Part shown: piece after piece, positions 131 through 30,770 of the stretch
Layout of the letters: the number at the start of each line of letters is the position of its first letter
How positions within the stretch are numbered: position 1 is the first letter of the stretch
Assembly (NCBI GenBank): GCA_001513155.1
Contig: LFSR01000044.1
Location: forward strand, 1 to 64,000
Source: Syntrophomonas sp. DTU018
Lineage (GTDB): Bacteria; Bacillota; Syntrophomonadia; Syntrophomonadales; Syntrophomonadaceae
Reading direction: 5' to 3'
Length of the DNA stretch: 64,000 nucleotides
Made by a program: the position numbers and the translations under genes
Notes under the pieces: generated by a model
Seen by the model: the letters and a program-made list of their open reading frames with translations, nothing else
The model's database searches: none
What the model was told of the DNA's origin: nothing

Positions 131-238
131 CTAGAAAAGAAGCAAGAAACCGACACTGAAAAGATAAACCGATACCGTCATAGAAACTGCAGTTAAAAAT
201 GAGCGGATGAACTCTCTTTTACTCAGACCGGTAAACAT
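131..238 (-). CDS. SOS-regulated 35-aa membrane peptide (candidate)
   Basis: A small ORF with ATG at 238-236 and TAG at 133-131. A strong ribosome site, GAGGTG, lies 6 nt before the ATG. The peptide opens with a short polar, basic stretch (MFTGLSKREFIR) followed by about 23 hydrophobic residues ending in GFLLLF, which reads as one transmembrane helix occupying nearly all of it. The gene sits directly behind a promoter carrying two LexA boxes, so its expression should be DNA-damage inducible. Known SOS-induced small membrane peptides include the division inhibitor SidA of Caulobacter (29 aa) and the toxin TisB of E. coli (29 aa). The firmicute division inhibitor YneA also has an N-terminal transmembrane helix but adds a LysM domain, which is absent here. 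I see no sequence similarity to these; the parallel is size, topology and regulation. Function is inferred. Confidence 0.62.
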   Translation of the reverse strand: MFTGLSKREFIRSFLTAVSMTVSVYLFSVGFLLLF

Positions 239-253
239 TGTATTTCACCTCAC

Positions 254-302
254 AGAACAAGTGTTCTGTAATAAGTATACTTACGAACAAACGTTCTGTA
301 AA
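254..302 (-). promoter_or_regulatory. SOS promoter with two LexA boxes
   Basis: On the minus strand there is a -35 TTTACA (302-297), a 17-bp spacer and a -10 TATACT (279-274). Two boxes match the firmicute LexA/DinR consensus GAAC-N4-GTTC. Box 2 at 284-297 (CGAACAAACGTTCT) fills the -35/-10 spacer. Box 1 at 254-267 (AGAACAAGTGTTCT) lies just downstream of -10, next to the ribosome site. Their centres are exactly 30 bp apart, so two LexA dimers would sit on nearly the same helical face. The tight fit to the 35-codon ORF downstream argues that the ORF is the regulated gene. Confidence 0.82.
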
Positions 303-15823: not shown

Positions 15824-17458
15824 ATGCTGGTTAAAGATATCATGCGTACTGAGTTTCATGCCTTTAATATCCATGATACCCTGGCGTCTGCCTGCAAAAG
15901 CATGGACAGCCTTAAACTTTATGGTGCTCCGGTGATTGATGATCAGGGTGTTATCAAAGGCATATTTACCCGGCCTCATTTAATAAGAGCCTTAATTGAA
16001 AAGCGTGATCCCAACACTTTGATAAAGGATCTTATGCAGCCGTCTATAGTAACCCTCGAACCTGATAACGACATCAGCGAAGCTATTAAAATGTTTGTGG
16101 ATACCGGTTATCGTCATTATCCCGTCAGGGATAGTGAGGGAAAACTGGTGGGACTGGTTTTATCTTCAGACTTGCTGCAGGTGGGGGCCCAGGAACTGTA
16201 TCGGGTGTTTGGAACCCATCGTCTTGATTACCTGGGCAATGCCATGATTGGTATTGACGCCAAGGGATACATAAGGTCAGTAAGTGAGAGTGCCCGCAGG
16301 ATATTTGGCCCTCGAGCTGCAGAATTGGTGAACAAGCATGTGATGGAGACTATTCCTCTTATGGAAAACCTGGCCAAGGAGATGGCATTGGATGCCCAAA
16401 AAGCCAAACACCTGGCGCACCAGTTGTCTATTGCCTTGAATAGACTGGAGTATTACCGTAACGAACTGAAAACGGTACGCAGCAAATACACTTTCAACGA
16501 GATAGTGGGTATGTCCCCCCAGATGAAAAAATTGCGCCACCTGGCTGCGCAAGCTGCCAAAACTACTTCCACTGTCCTTATCAGGGGTGAGAGCGGAACC
16601 GGCAAGGAACTGCTGGCCCAGGCTATTCACAATGCCAGCCCTAGATGCAACCAGCCTTTTATTAAAGTTAACTGCGCAGCCATTCCTGAAACGCTGATGG
16701 AATCCGAGCTGTTTGGCTACAGCGAAGGGGCCTTTACCGGAGCCCTGAGAGGCGGTAAGCCTGGCAAATTTGAACTGGCTGATGGGGGAACAATATTCCT
16801 GGATGAAATCGGCGACCTGCAACCCAGTCTCCAGTCAAAGCTGTTAAGGGTTCTGCAGGAATTTGAGTTTGAACGATTAGGCAGCACCAAAACCATTAAT
16901 GTTGATGTAAGGGTTATTGCCGCTACCAATCGCAATCTGGAAGAGTTGATAAAGCGGGGCAAGTTCAGGGCTGATTTATTTTACCGTCTTAATGTGGTGG
17001 AGATAGTAACTCCGCCGCTGCGGGAACGCCGGGAAGATATTGATTATTTAACGGATTATCTGCTGGAGAAGATAACTGACCGTTTGCATATACCACTGGT
17101 GGGGATAAGTGAGGAAGCACGCCAGATACTGCGGGAATATGATTTTCCAGGCAATGTCCGGGAACTGGAAAACATCCTGGAAAGGGCCATTAATTTGATT
17201 AATGAAAACAGCGATACTATTCTTCCTGAGCATCTGCAGTTGCTGGGACATCATGCTAGTTCCAATATGGATTTGACGGTTAGTAAAATAACGGAAAGCA
17301 TGCCCAGGAGTTTAGAGGAAACTGTAAAGCTGGCAGAGAAAAATGCTATATTAGAGGCATTGAAACGTTCTGGAGGCAACCGCAATAAGGCTGCTCAAAT
17401 GCTGAATATCCACCGGTCACTGCTGTATAAAAAGATGCAAAAGCATAATATACGATAA
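15824..17458 (+). CDS. Sigma-54 activator with twin CBS domains
   Basis: 544 aa. Residues 1-120 form two CBS repeats, each starting with the DIM/DLM signature (VKDIMRTEF, IKDLMQPSI), which commonly bind adenosyl ligands such as AMP, ATP or SAM. A PAS-like segment follows at about 130-190 (AMIGIDAKGYIRSVSESA). The AAA+ core has Walker A GESGTGKE, the sigma-54 contact loop GAFTGA and Walker B GGTIFLDEIGD. A Fis-type helix-turn-helix closes it (GGNRNKAAQMLNIHRSLLYKK). Its position between pfkA and hbd suggests that energy charge controls fatty-acid oxidation genes (inference). No -24/-12 element was seen in its own upstream region. Confidence 0.88.
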   Translation: MLVKDIMRTEFHAFNIHDTLASACKSMDSLKLYGAPVIDDQGVIKGIFTRPHLIRALIEKRDPNTLIKDLMQPSIVTLEPDNDISEAIKMFVDTGYRHYPVRDSEGKLVGLVLSSDLLQVGAQELYRVFGTHRLDYLGNAMIGIDAKGYIRSVSESARRIFGPRAAELVNKHVMETIPLMENLAKEMALDAQKAKHLAHQLSIALNRLEYYRNELKTVRSKYTFNEIVGMSPQMKKLRHLAAQAAKTTSTVLIRGESGTGKELLAQAIHNASPRCNQPFIKVNCAAIPETLMESELFGYSEGAFTGALRGGKPGKFELADGGTIFLDEIGDLQPSLQSKLLRVLQEFEFERLGSTKTINVDVRVIAATNRNLEELIKRGKFRADLFYRLNVVEIVTPPLRERREDIDYLTDYLLEKITDRLHIPLVGISEEARQILREYDFPGNVRELENILERAINLINENSDTILPEHLQLLGHHASSNMDLTVSKITESMPRSLEETVKLAEKNAILEALKRSGGNRNKAAQMLNIHRSLLYKKMQKHNIR

Positions 17459-17474
17459 TTAGGGAGGAGAGGCA

Positions 17475-18320
17475 ATGGAAAAAGTTGCAATTCTGGGCGC
17501 TGGCATTATGGGTGCTGGTATTGCTCAGGTAGCAGCTCAGGGTGGATACCAGGTAATCCTGCGTGACCTCCAGCAAAGTATTGTTCTGGACGGATTGCGT
17601 ACGGTAGAGAAAAATCTGCAAAAAGCCGTTGAGAAAAAACAGCTGAACGCCCAGCAGCGGGATGAAATACTTAGCCGTATATCAACCTGCACCGACTTGG
17701 CAGAAGTCCACGCAGCGGACTTAGTCATAGAAGCAGTAGTCGAGAACATGGCGGTAAAAAAACAAATCTTCGCTGAGCTAGACCACCTGTGCCAATCCCA
17801 TACCTTGTTAGCTACCAATACATCATCATTATCCATAACCGAGATTGCTTCAGCTACGCGCCGGCCGGACAAGGTACTGGGCATGCATTTTTTTAATCCG
17901 GTACCGGTAATGAAGCTTGTGGAATTGGTAAAAGGCATGGAAACCAGTGATGAGACTATTGACATTGCCCGCCAGTTTGTAAAGCACATCGGCAAAGAGG
18001 AAGTGGTTGTGCATCGAGACAGTCCGGGTTATATAGTTAACCGGATTCTGGTGCCTTTCATAAATGAAGCCACATTTGTAGTGGGCGAGGGCTTAGCTGA
18101 TGCAGAAGCAGTGGACATGGCCATGAAATATGGGGCGGGAATGCCCATGGGACCTTTGGAATTGGCAGACATGATCGGTTTGGATATTATTTATGCAGTT
18201 ATTCTGGCATTTTATAATGAATTCCGCGATCCTAAGTATCGTCCTCACCATTTGCTGTCTACTATGATAAGAGCTGGATACCTGGGACGAAAAAGCGGGC
18301 GCGGATTTTATAGATACTAG
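17475..18320 (+). CDS. hbd: 3-hydroxybutyryl-CoA dehydrogenase
   Basis: NAD-dependent interconversion of 3-hydroxybutyryl-CoA and acetoacetyl-CoA, a core step of butyrate oxidation. The 281-aa protein begins with the NAD loop VAILGAGIMGAGIAQV. It has the catalytic His in MHFFNPVPVMKLVE, SPGYIVNRIL and the C-terminal GPLELADMIGLD. GGAGGAG precedes ATG 17475, 16 nt after the sigma-54 activator, so both are probably in one transcript with pfkA. The thiolase and CoA-transferase acting beside it are encoded at 33-36 kb. Confidence 0.93.
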   Translation: MEKVAILGAGIMGAGIAQVAAQGGYQVILRDLQQSIVLDGLRTVEKNLQKAVEKKQLNAQQRDEILSRISTCTDLAEVHAADLVIEAVVENMAVKKQIFAELDHLCQSHTLLATNTSSLSITEIASATRRPDKVLGMHFFNPVPVMKLVELVKGMETSDETIDIARQFVKHIGKEEVVVHRDSPGYIVNRILVPFINEATFVVGEGLADAEAVDMAMKYGAGMPMGPLELADMIGLDIIYAVILAFYNEFRDPKYRPHHLLSTMIRAGYLGRKSGRGFYRY

Positions 18321-18344
18321 AGGAGAATAATGGGAGGTTAAGAG

Positions 18345-19172
18345 TTGAAGATCAAGGCTAAACCGTCAAAGGCCTTTTGGCTGGGATTAATATTGGGCGT
18401 GGTAATATTTGGCTTTGTATTCTGGGGTATTAACTATTCCCTGGGCTCCGGGGATCAAGCCTTAAAAATGGCTCTGTTATTGCCAGCTTACTTGTTTGCC
18501 GGAATTTTTATCGTTTTATTGCTAGGTTCCCTTAACCTTAAATATCAGGTTGAAGATGATCACCTGCTGATTTATTGGGGGATAAGAAAGATTAAAGTTC
18601 CCTTCAGTGAGATAAATGAGATTATCCAGGTTAAAGGCAGAGCCAATTTATTTTCCATCCTGGGAGTAAGTTGGCCGGGATATATGGTAGGCCTGTACTC
18701 CGCCAAGGGATTGGGACCGGTGAGAATGTACGCTACTCAACCTTACCAGGGATTTGTATATCTGAAAACCAATCTGGGCTTTTTCGGGTTGACTCCCGCA
18801 GATGATACCTTGATTAACACCCTGGCCCAGCGAACGGAAAAGGAAATAACCATTACCGACATGGACGGGATACCCGAGGAAATCAAGGGAAAAAGCTTGC
18901 AAAGCGATGGGTTCTACCGGTTATTGTTTATCTTAAACATTGTATTCCTGCTGGCTTTTGCTGTGTACCTGGCAGTGTTTTTCCCAGGTTCGGGAGCTCC
19001 GCCTATTGTAGTCTTGCTGTTGGTCTTAGCGATTGCCTTGTTTTTCTTTAATATCAGCAATGCGGGACGGTTGTACCAGTTTAGTGAAATAGGCGGGTAC
19101 ATCCTGTTAATTATTGGCCTGGCTGTTACCGGTATATTTATAATCCTGTCTCTATCCGAGATCAGTTTATAA
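18345..19172 (+). CDS. Membrane protein with bacterial PH-like domain
   Basis: 275 aa, TTG start at 18345 with GGGAGG upstream. Two transmembrane helices (about 10-30 and 40-62) are followed by a bacterial PH-like beta domain (LKYQVEDDHLLIYWGIRKIKVPFSEINEI, about 64-175). Two or three further helices lie at the C terminus (about 190-270). This resembles DUF1648/bPH-type membrane proteins. Specific function is not recognised. It trails hbd by 24 nt and is followed by an intrinsic terminator, so it probably ends the pfkA-hbd operon. Confidence 0.7.
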   Translation: MKIKAKPSKAFWLGLILGVVIFGFVFWGINYSLGSGDQALKMALLLPAYLFAGIFIVLLLGSLNLKYQVEDDHLLIYWGIRKIKVPFSEINEIIQVKGRANLFSILGVSWPGYMVGLYSAKGLGPVRMYATQPYQGFVYLKTNLGFFGLTPADDTLINTLAQRTEKEITITDMDGIPEEIKGKSLQSDGFYRLLFILNIVFLLAFAVYLAVFFPGSGAPPIVVLLLVLAIALFFFNISNAGRLYQFSEIGGYILLIIGLAVTGIFIILSLSEISL

Positions 19173-19242
19173 TCCATTTGCCTTTACTTAACGGAGAGCT
19201 TTTTGCAGGCATTGAAATAAGGGCATAATATAGAACTAAATT

Positions 19243-19277
19243 GGCCTTTTCAGATGGGGAAAGGCCTTTATTTCTTT
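19243..19277 (+). terminator. Intrinsic terminator after the pfkA-hbd operon
   Basis: GGCCTTT (19243-19249) pairs with AAAGGCC (19260-19266) and is followed by TTTATTTCTTT. It separates the PH-domain gene from ychF. Confidence 0.8.
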
Positions 19278-19353
19278 GGAACAGGAAACTGCTGGTATAA
19301 TGGAAATTACCGCGCTATAATAGGATTTGACATTTTAGGAGGAATGGTAGCAT

Positions 19354-20418
19354 ATGCAGCTGGGAATAATCGGTTTGCCTATGGTGGGCAAGACAACTAT
19401 TTTTGAATTGTTAACGGAAAGCCGGCAAAAAGGCGGCACTGCCAACAAAGCTAATGCCGCAATGGCCAGGATACCAGACGAAAGAATCGATTATCTGGCT
19501 AATCTTTACAAACCTAAAAAAACCACATATGCTCAACTGGAAATAGTAGATATTCCCGGGTTGGCTCCGGGTAATGTTAAAGCCGCTTCGGTATTTTTAG
19601 ATGCAGTTAGGCAGGCTGATGCCTTGCTGCATGTGGTCAGGGTGTTTGAAGATGACCAGGTACCGATGGTGAATGATAAAATTGATCCCATCGGCGATAT
19701 TGAGCTAATCAATTACGAACTTCTCCTGGCTGACTTGGATTTGATCGATAAAAGAGTAGAAAGAATCAATGCGGGCAAACGCAAAGCCCATACCGAAAAA
19801 GAACTGCATCTGCTGGCCCGTTTGCGGGAAGCTATAGAAAACCAACAGCCTATTTCTGCAGTAGATCTTGATGAGGAAGAACAGATGATTATGAAAAGCT
19901 ATCAGTTCCTCACCAGCAAACCCATGCTGATATGTCTCAATTTATCGGAAAAAGATTTGCTGTCAGGTAATTATCCGGACAAGGAAAAGGTAATGGAATA
20001 CTGCCGGGAACACCAGATACCCATGGTAGAATTGTCGGCCAGCATTGAACGGGATATTGCTGAATTAGAGGAAGAGGAACGGGAATTGTTTATGCAGGAA
20101 GCTGGTATAACTGAACCTGGTCTGGTTAAGGTTACCCGTATAATGTATGAGCGTCTGGGGCTGATATCCTTTTTCACAGTAGGGGAGGATGAGGTAAAAG
20201 CCTGGACCATTAATAAGGGTACTAATGCCCGCAAGGCAGCAGGCAAGATCCATTCCGATATTGAACGGGGCTTTATCAGAGCGGAAGTAGTGGAATTTGA
20301 GGATCTGAAAAAATATGGTTCTATGGCTGCGGTAAAAGAGCATGGCTTATTTAGGCTGGAAGGAAAGGACTACATTGTCAAAGACGGCGATATAATTCAT
20401 TTCCGCTTTAACATCTAG
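19354..20418 (+). CDS. ychF: YchF/Obg-family ATPase
   Basis: 354 aa. A ribosome-associated P-loop protein of the Obg superfamily that hydrolyses ATP rather than GTP. The P-loop is GLPMVGKTTIF (7-17), G3 is DIPGLAPG, and the base-recognition motif is NLSE (NxxE), as in ATP-specific YchF, instead of NKxD. The C-terminal TGS domain has GLISFFTVGEDEVKAWTI and the family ending GSMAAVKEHGLFRLEGKDYIVKDGDIIHFRFN. The loop reads PMVGKTT rather than the usual PNVGKST. It lies 11 nt before trkA. Confidence 0.88.
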   Translation: MQLGIIGLPMVGKTTIFELLTESRQKGGTANKANAAMARIPDERIDYLANLYKPKKTTYAQLEIVDIPGLAPGNVKAASVFLDAVRQADALLHVVRVFEDDQVPMVNDKIDPIGDIELINYELLLADLDLIDKRVERINAGKRKAHTEKELHLLARLREAIENQQPISAVDLDEEEQMIMKSYQFLTSKPMLICLNLSEKDLLSGNYPDKEKVMEYCREHQIPMVELSASIERDIAELEEEERELFMQEAGITEPGLVKVTRIMYERLGLISFFTVGEDEVKAWTINKGTNARKAAGKIHSDIERGFIRAEVVEFEDLKKYGSMAAVKEHGLFRLEGKDYIVKDGDIIHFRFNI

Positions 20419-30375: not shown

Positions 30376-30770
30376 GTCAATGTCAAGAGTAAGTCTAGCA
30401 GTTATTCTTTAATTTTGAATATAACCTTGGGAGGATAGCTAAAAGACAGCCTGGCTGCTGTCTCAATTAAATAATATGGTCATCCTTCTGTTATCCTCTC
30501 CCCTCACCGGAACAAGTTTATCCTTCCCTACAGGTGTTGCTCAGCACTCGCTGCACAGAGAACAATTGTTCTTATGATGATGAAAACATACGATATTGAT
30601 AGCTTGCAGTTAATCAGTGCCTTGAAGGTACCAATTGACCACAGATATCGACACAGCAATGCTTGTTATTTAAGATTAAATCTGATACTATTTCCACAAC
30701 GGAATATAATGTAAAGATAAATTGAATATTTTGACGAAATGCATAAATAAATAAACAGGAGAGGATCAGA
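30376..30770. other. Intergenic region, no gene seen
   Basis: This interval between divergent regulators holds a hairpin AGACAGC...GCTGTCT (about 30443-30463) without a T-run, and otherwise AT-rich unstructured DNA. No -24/-12 element or ORF of credible quality is present. Confidence 0.4.

Follow-up and report, generated by a model that had tools for sequence, protein, structure and literature searches.

The membrane segment of YneA from Bacillus subtilis binds on its own to TM7 of FtsW, and the LysM domain of the protein is needed to inhibit (PMC13396833). SidA of Caulobacter crescentus, with 29 residues, blocks division through FtsW (PMC4211646), and SosA of Staphylococcus aureus (77 aa) is without LysM and needs an extracellular tail for inhibition (PMC6851548). 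DinQ of Escherichia coli, with 27 residues, is a toxic SOS-regulated single-helix peptide of the inner membrane that depolarises, and its locus resembles tisB-istR (PMC3567139).

The 35-residue peptide described here is encoded in a window of 64,000 nucleotides, the whole stretch of DNA that was analysed, from Syntrophomonas sp. DTU018. Like SidA, it would be a single-helix inner-membrane microprotein under LexA boxes with no folded extracellular domain. This likeness is one of working and not a claim of homology, SidA coming from an unrelated phylum, and the interaction of SidA with FtsW and FtsN is experimental whereas the partner proposed here is a predicted one. With YneA and with the helix-plus-LysM proteins encoded at four further loci (L294, L295, L303 and L304) the peptide has in common a short N-terminus followed by one membrane helix, and the genes at these four loci have a double-LexA-box promoter very similar to its own. 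In contrast to the YneA type, however, the peptide has no LysM domain, is about one third of the size and shows no similarity by eye, and in the window genome its gene is neither beside lexA nor divergent from it. SosA is likewise a Firmicute SOS membrane protein lacking LysM, but its extracellular tail is probably required for CtpA turnover, whereas the peptide ends at the membrane, and the SosA gene lies beside lexA. TisB and DinQ, too, are LexA-controlled and consist of a single short helix in the membrane, but they are under antisense RNA control, of which we saw no conserved sign at the peptide locus in three genomes of the same genus or by Rfam. The open-access literature, to which our search was confined, yielded no description of the peptide. 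Apparently, it represents a new protein family within the known class of SOS membrane microproteins, one that is helix-only in a Firmicute lineage.

The locus and its operator

The features of the locus are as follows.

131 to 238, minus strand: 35-aa open reading frame MFTGLSKREFIRSFLTAVSMTVSVYLFSVGFLLLF, a candidate SOS membrane microprotein from conservation, dN/dS and predicted helix; below usual gene-calling limits
246 to 251, minus strand: Shine-Dalgarno sequence GAGGTG, 7 nt 5' of the ATG; kept in two relatives (G001 and G003)
255 to 266, unstranded: LexA box 2, downstream, covering the expected transcription start; minus strand GAACACTTGTTC; part of the recurring box pair
274 to 279, minus strand: -10 hexamer TATACT; TATAAT-like hexamer at about the same place in most homologues
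285 to 296, unstranded: LexA box 1, within the 17-bp promoter spacer; minus strand GAACGTTTGTTC; part of the recurring box pair
297 to 302, minus strand: -35 hexamer TTTACA, abutting box 1; TTGACA in most homologues

The reading frame starts with the ATG at 238-236 and includes the TAG stop (133-131), and since the window begins at base 1 of its contig (C48), just 130 bases lie 3' of it here. On the minus strand the order is TTTACA, the 17-bp spacer containing GAACGTTTGTTC, TATACT, GAACACTTGTTC, GAGGTG, ATG and 35 codons. Both boxes, GAACAAGTGTTC (255-266) and GAACAAACGTTC (285-296), are exact, with a spacing of 30 bp. A preliminary description had placed them at 254-267 and 284-297, positions that add one flanking base on each side of the same two boxes; its 30-bp spacing, its box inside the 17-bp spacer between -35 and -10 and its GAGGTG, ATG and 35 codons agree exactly with the sequence, and all its coordinates are correct. 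The 2.56-Mb genome contains 28 GAACN4GTTC sites, against 12 for a reversed control pattern, and box pairs this close occur in two places only. Judged from this rarity and from the recurrence of the layout at homologues, the box pair at the reading frame is more than a chance occurrence.

Both lexA and recA are kept in this genome. The recA gene stands just after a single box, GAACATATGTTT, and lexA, whose own box is degenerate, lies at C48:69179, about 69 kb from the peptide gene. Further likely SOS genes are dinB, an imuB-like gene and one for an SMC-like ATPase. The only other double operator of the genome precedes the imuB-like gene (IMS_C domain; G000:C43:15539-16630, L111), and a DnaE-type polymerase gene (17120-20335) follows close behind, which makes a likely SOS mutagenesis cassette. 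A single LexA box directly precedes a gene for a SMC/RecN-like ATPase followed by one for a winged-helix (Trans_reg_C) protein (G000:C57:76269-78699, L113), perhaps a further SOS operon. In the window itself, a single intergenic GAACAATTGTTC at 30560-30571, a candidate site only, lies about 200 bp before a 702-aa reading frame that reads like a sensory or regulatory protein.

Conservation of the peptide and its neighbourhood

Homologues of 35 residues with the same MF start were found among 60 relatives searched. A profile (A1) built from 19 homologues, with acceptance at E <= 1.3e-5, found them in 41 of 54 Syntrophomonadaceae genomes and 18 of 23 genera. A profile search of a sample of 398 genomes of the phylum gave no homologue in the roughly 385 that are outside the family, the best outsider (8.5e-4) being inside a 432-residue frame. 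We also scanned 84,980 species genomes with a DNA pattern of box, start and motif, which matched at 67 places, and every short hydrophobic peptide of this type among them belongs to the Syntrophomonadaceae group. The matches outside the group offered no comparable short membrane peptide, were nearly all single-box and look like chance; viral contigs, phages and plasmids held nothing convincing. The gene is absent from one genus (g21, three genomes) and from some others, all of which keep lexA, and it is therefore not indispensable for the SOS response.

Close pairs of homologues differ mostly by silent changes, with four synonymous and no replacement changes in one pair (G024/G065), nine and none in another (G075/G077), and a dN/dS ratio of mostly about 0.1-0.2 in further pairs. 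Codon variability is highest at position 3 and lowest at position 2. With dN so far below dS, these comparisons indicate purifying selection on a real protein.

The neighbouring genes vary by genus, with ddl upstream in the genus of the window and other genes elsewhere, and no conserved operon partner was found across the genera compared. The next downstream gene is often convergent; it is tRNA-Trp in G001 and G003, and in one genome (G017) the peptide gene is convergent with lexA. These changing neighbours show that the gene stands alone, its promoter and reading frame having been kept together through rearrangements. A scan for downstream terminators found hairpins in 11 of 41 homologues and was uninformative.

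The reading frame is short and, in this genome, sits at the end of its contig, as might be expected if it had arisen by chance near LexA boxes with no function or with one for another gene. This explanation is extremely improbable, and we consider it ruled out by the conservation data, given that 41 homologues keep start, length and sequence with dN far below dS and that boxes and reading frame stay paired across different neighbourhoods. The preliminary description had named loss of the frame beside the boxes in relatives as an outcome that would speak against it; the two are in fact kept together. Its LexA-controlled membrane peptide is thus strongly supported by the 18 genera, the purifying selection and the recurring double operator, and its interpretation overall, as a damage-induced peptide acting on division or membrane potential, is supported in part.

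The predicted helix

AlphaFold2 gave a single helix over residues 7-34 with a mean pLDDT of 89, and the peptide had no sequence match above threshold in Pfam, NCBIfam, PHROGs or the PDB. Met1 and Phe2 are essentially invariant, and Tyr25 and an acidic residue at position 9 are present in all 41 homologues. Positions 5-10 are mostly [FLYI]-[ST]-[KR]-[KR]-[ED]-[FL], the F-S-K-K-E-F cap, in which we read S/T6...E/D9 as a helix capping box, with F5...F10 as a hydrophobic staple. From these two elements, the cap motif probably fixes the start of the helix at the inner face of the membrane. Between positions 14 and 33, just one of the 41 homologues carries a charged residue or His, and the peptide is predicted to be a single-pass membrane helix with an almost charge-free span. 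A conserved helix face at 100 degrees was not significant (p about 0.8).

A membrane peptide of this size under LexA control might also be a depolarising peptide of the TisB/DinQ type, which oligomerises or perturbs the membrane and lowers potential and ATP, leading to dormancy. The similarity of size and regulation is on the side of this explanation. However, TisB and DinQ belong to the type I toxins, with mRNAs that undergo processing and are kept in check by antisense RNA, whereas the leader expected here is only about 30 nt; in three genomes of one genus the sequence outside promoter and reading frame is poorly conserved and has no clearly conserved non-coding block, although an sRNA that is unconserved or distant may exist; Rfam matched no family at the locus, and the span is nearly devoid of charge across the homologues. 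We therefore regard a depolarising role as unlikely.

LexA control across the family

In 38 of 41 homologues, a pair of GAACN4GTT(C/T) boxes lies no more than 140 nt from the start. Their spacing is exactly 30 bp in 20 of these 38 and 25-37 bp in all of them. Box 1 comes immediately after TTGACA, TTGACG or TTTACA in 34 of the 38, and one base further in the other four, and most of the 38 have a -10-like hexamer downstream of it. The exceptions are G032 with degenerate boxes, G008 with no box within 700 nt, and G064 (L292, C106:24534-24779), where the box pair is about 245 nt upstream compared with the usual distance of about 25-45. When the whole family was searched for box pairs of any kind, most genomes yielded the promoter of this gene and hardly anything more. 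Taken together, the promoters suggest that the gene is apparently repressed by LexA, and LexA binding and SOS induction would follow from the same layout. One genome without the peptide (G023) has four LexA boxes crowded into about 100 bp (C1:1510027-1510130, L290); this locus adjoins a terminase-like gene, looks like a prophage region and, when checked for a hidden homologue, had none.

In a sample of 299 genomes from the phylum, a double-operator pattern closely resembling this one gave 14 matches, two within the Syntrophomonadaceae and 12 outside; the pattern demanded two bases between TTGAC and GAAC, so that the commonest TTGACA-GAAC spacing was missed, and the fraction of yneA-type genes among the matches is accordingly a sample and not a census. 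Four of the 12 outside matches, the loci L294, L295, L303 and L304 from two families, drive a gene divergent from lexA, whose product has the yneA arrangement of short N-terminus, membrane helix and LysM (the last confirmed by Pfam for one protein per family). In 30 Syntrophomonadaceae genomes there was no LysM-like small reading frame within about 3 kb of lexA, and the window genome had no LysM frame under 276 aa. With yneA-type genes under a similar operator elsewhere and none at lexA here, the peptide seems to hold the regulatory place of YneA.

A similar double operator also precedes a reading frame of 130-145 aa at seven other loci (L296-L302, in G138, G326, G303, G256, G206, G280 and G173); one genome apart, these belong to a single family (f64). 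In the one member that was scanned, the match to an RNase H-like domain (RVT_3) was weak and fell below cut-off; perhaps this is an undescribed SOS gene.

Proposed function

We propose that the peptide is an SOS checkpoint microprotein that delays division by an intramembrane, SidA-like block of septal wall synthesis, and we give this a probability of just under 0.6. The operator shared with yneA-type genes and the anatomy of the helix favour such a block, and action on membrane potential appears less likely. The lack of both the LysM domain and the extracellular tail that YneA and SosA need weakens the division-inhibitor reading, which no sequence likeness to a known division inhibitor supports.

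Many bacterial single-helix proteins of fewer than 50 aa regulate membrane complexes, and the peptide might likewise be an SOS-induced regulator of a membrane protein unconnected with division, such as a protease, transporter, ATP synthase or sensor kinase. The invariance of Tyr25 and the conservation of the cap motif suggest that the peptide has a specific partner, as a regulator of this kind would. No conserved neighbour gene indicates one, however, and the operator architecture is common to yneA-type genes; we consider such a role improbable, a little more so than depolarisation.

For the division checkpoint, the events would be as follows. Two LexA dimers would cover the near-consensus promoter and keep the gene off, until RecA triggers self-cleavage of LexA and the mRNA, with its short expected leader, is made. 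The peptide would insert as one helix, probably with its N-terminus inside, and bind inside the bilayer to a membrane partner, for which FtsW, the septal-wall synthase, or its complex is the likeliest candidate; the window genome has two FtsW/RodA-type proteins. Division would then be delayed until repair is done. We infer topology, partner, division arrest and clearance alike. In this role the peptide would take the place of the membrane-helix-plus-LysM YneA of related families. Perhaps, and this we offer as a tentative idea, a helix-only microprotein that halts septal wall synthesis from within the membrane has replaced the helix-plus-LysM inhibitor in a whole Firmicute family, in which case the extracellular part that the Firmicute inhibitors studied so far need would be dispensable.

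The gene, too short for usual gene calling, is predicted to be a widely kept part of the SOS regulon in syntrophic anaerobes. The approach taken here, which looks for a double LexA operator that stays with a short reading frame while the neighbourhood changes, could reveal other missed SOS microproteins. If the peptide does arrest division, it would represent a minimal inhibitor for a Firmicute lineage, 35 residues long and helix-only, and it would allow a direct test of whether SOS inhibitors share an intramembrane site on FtsW.
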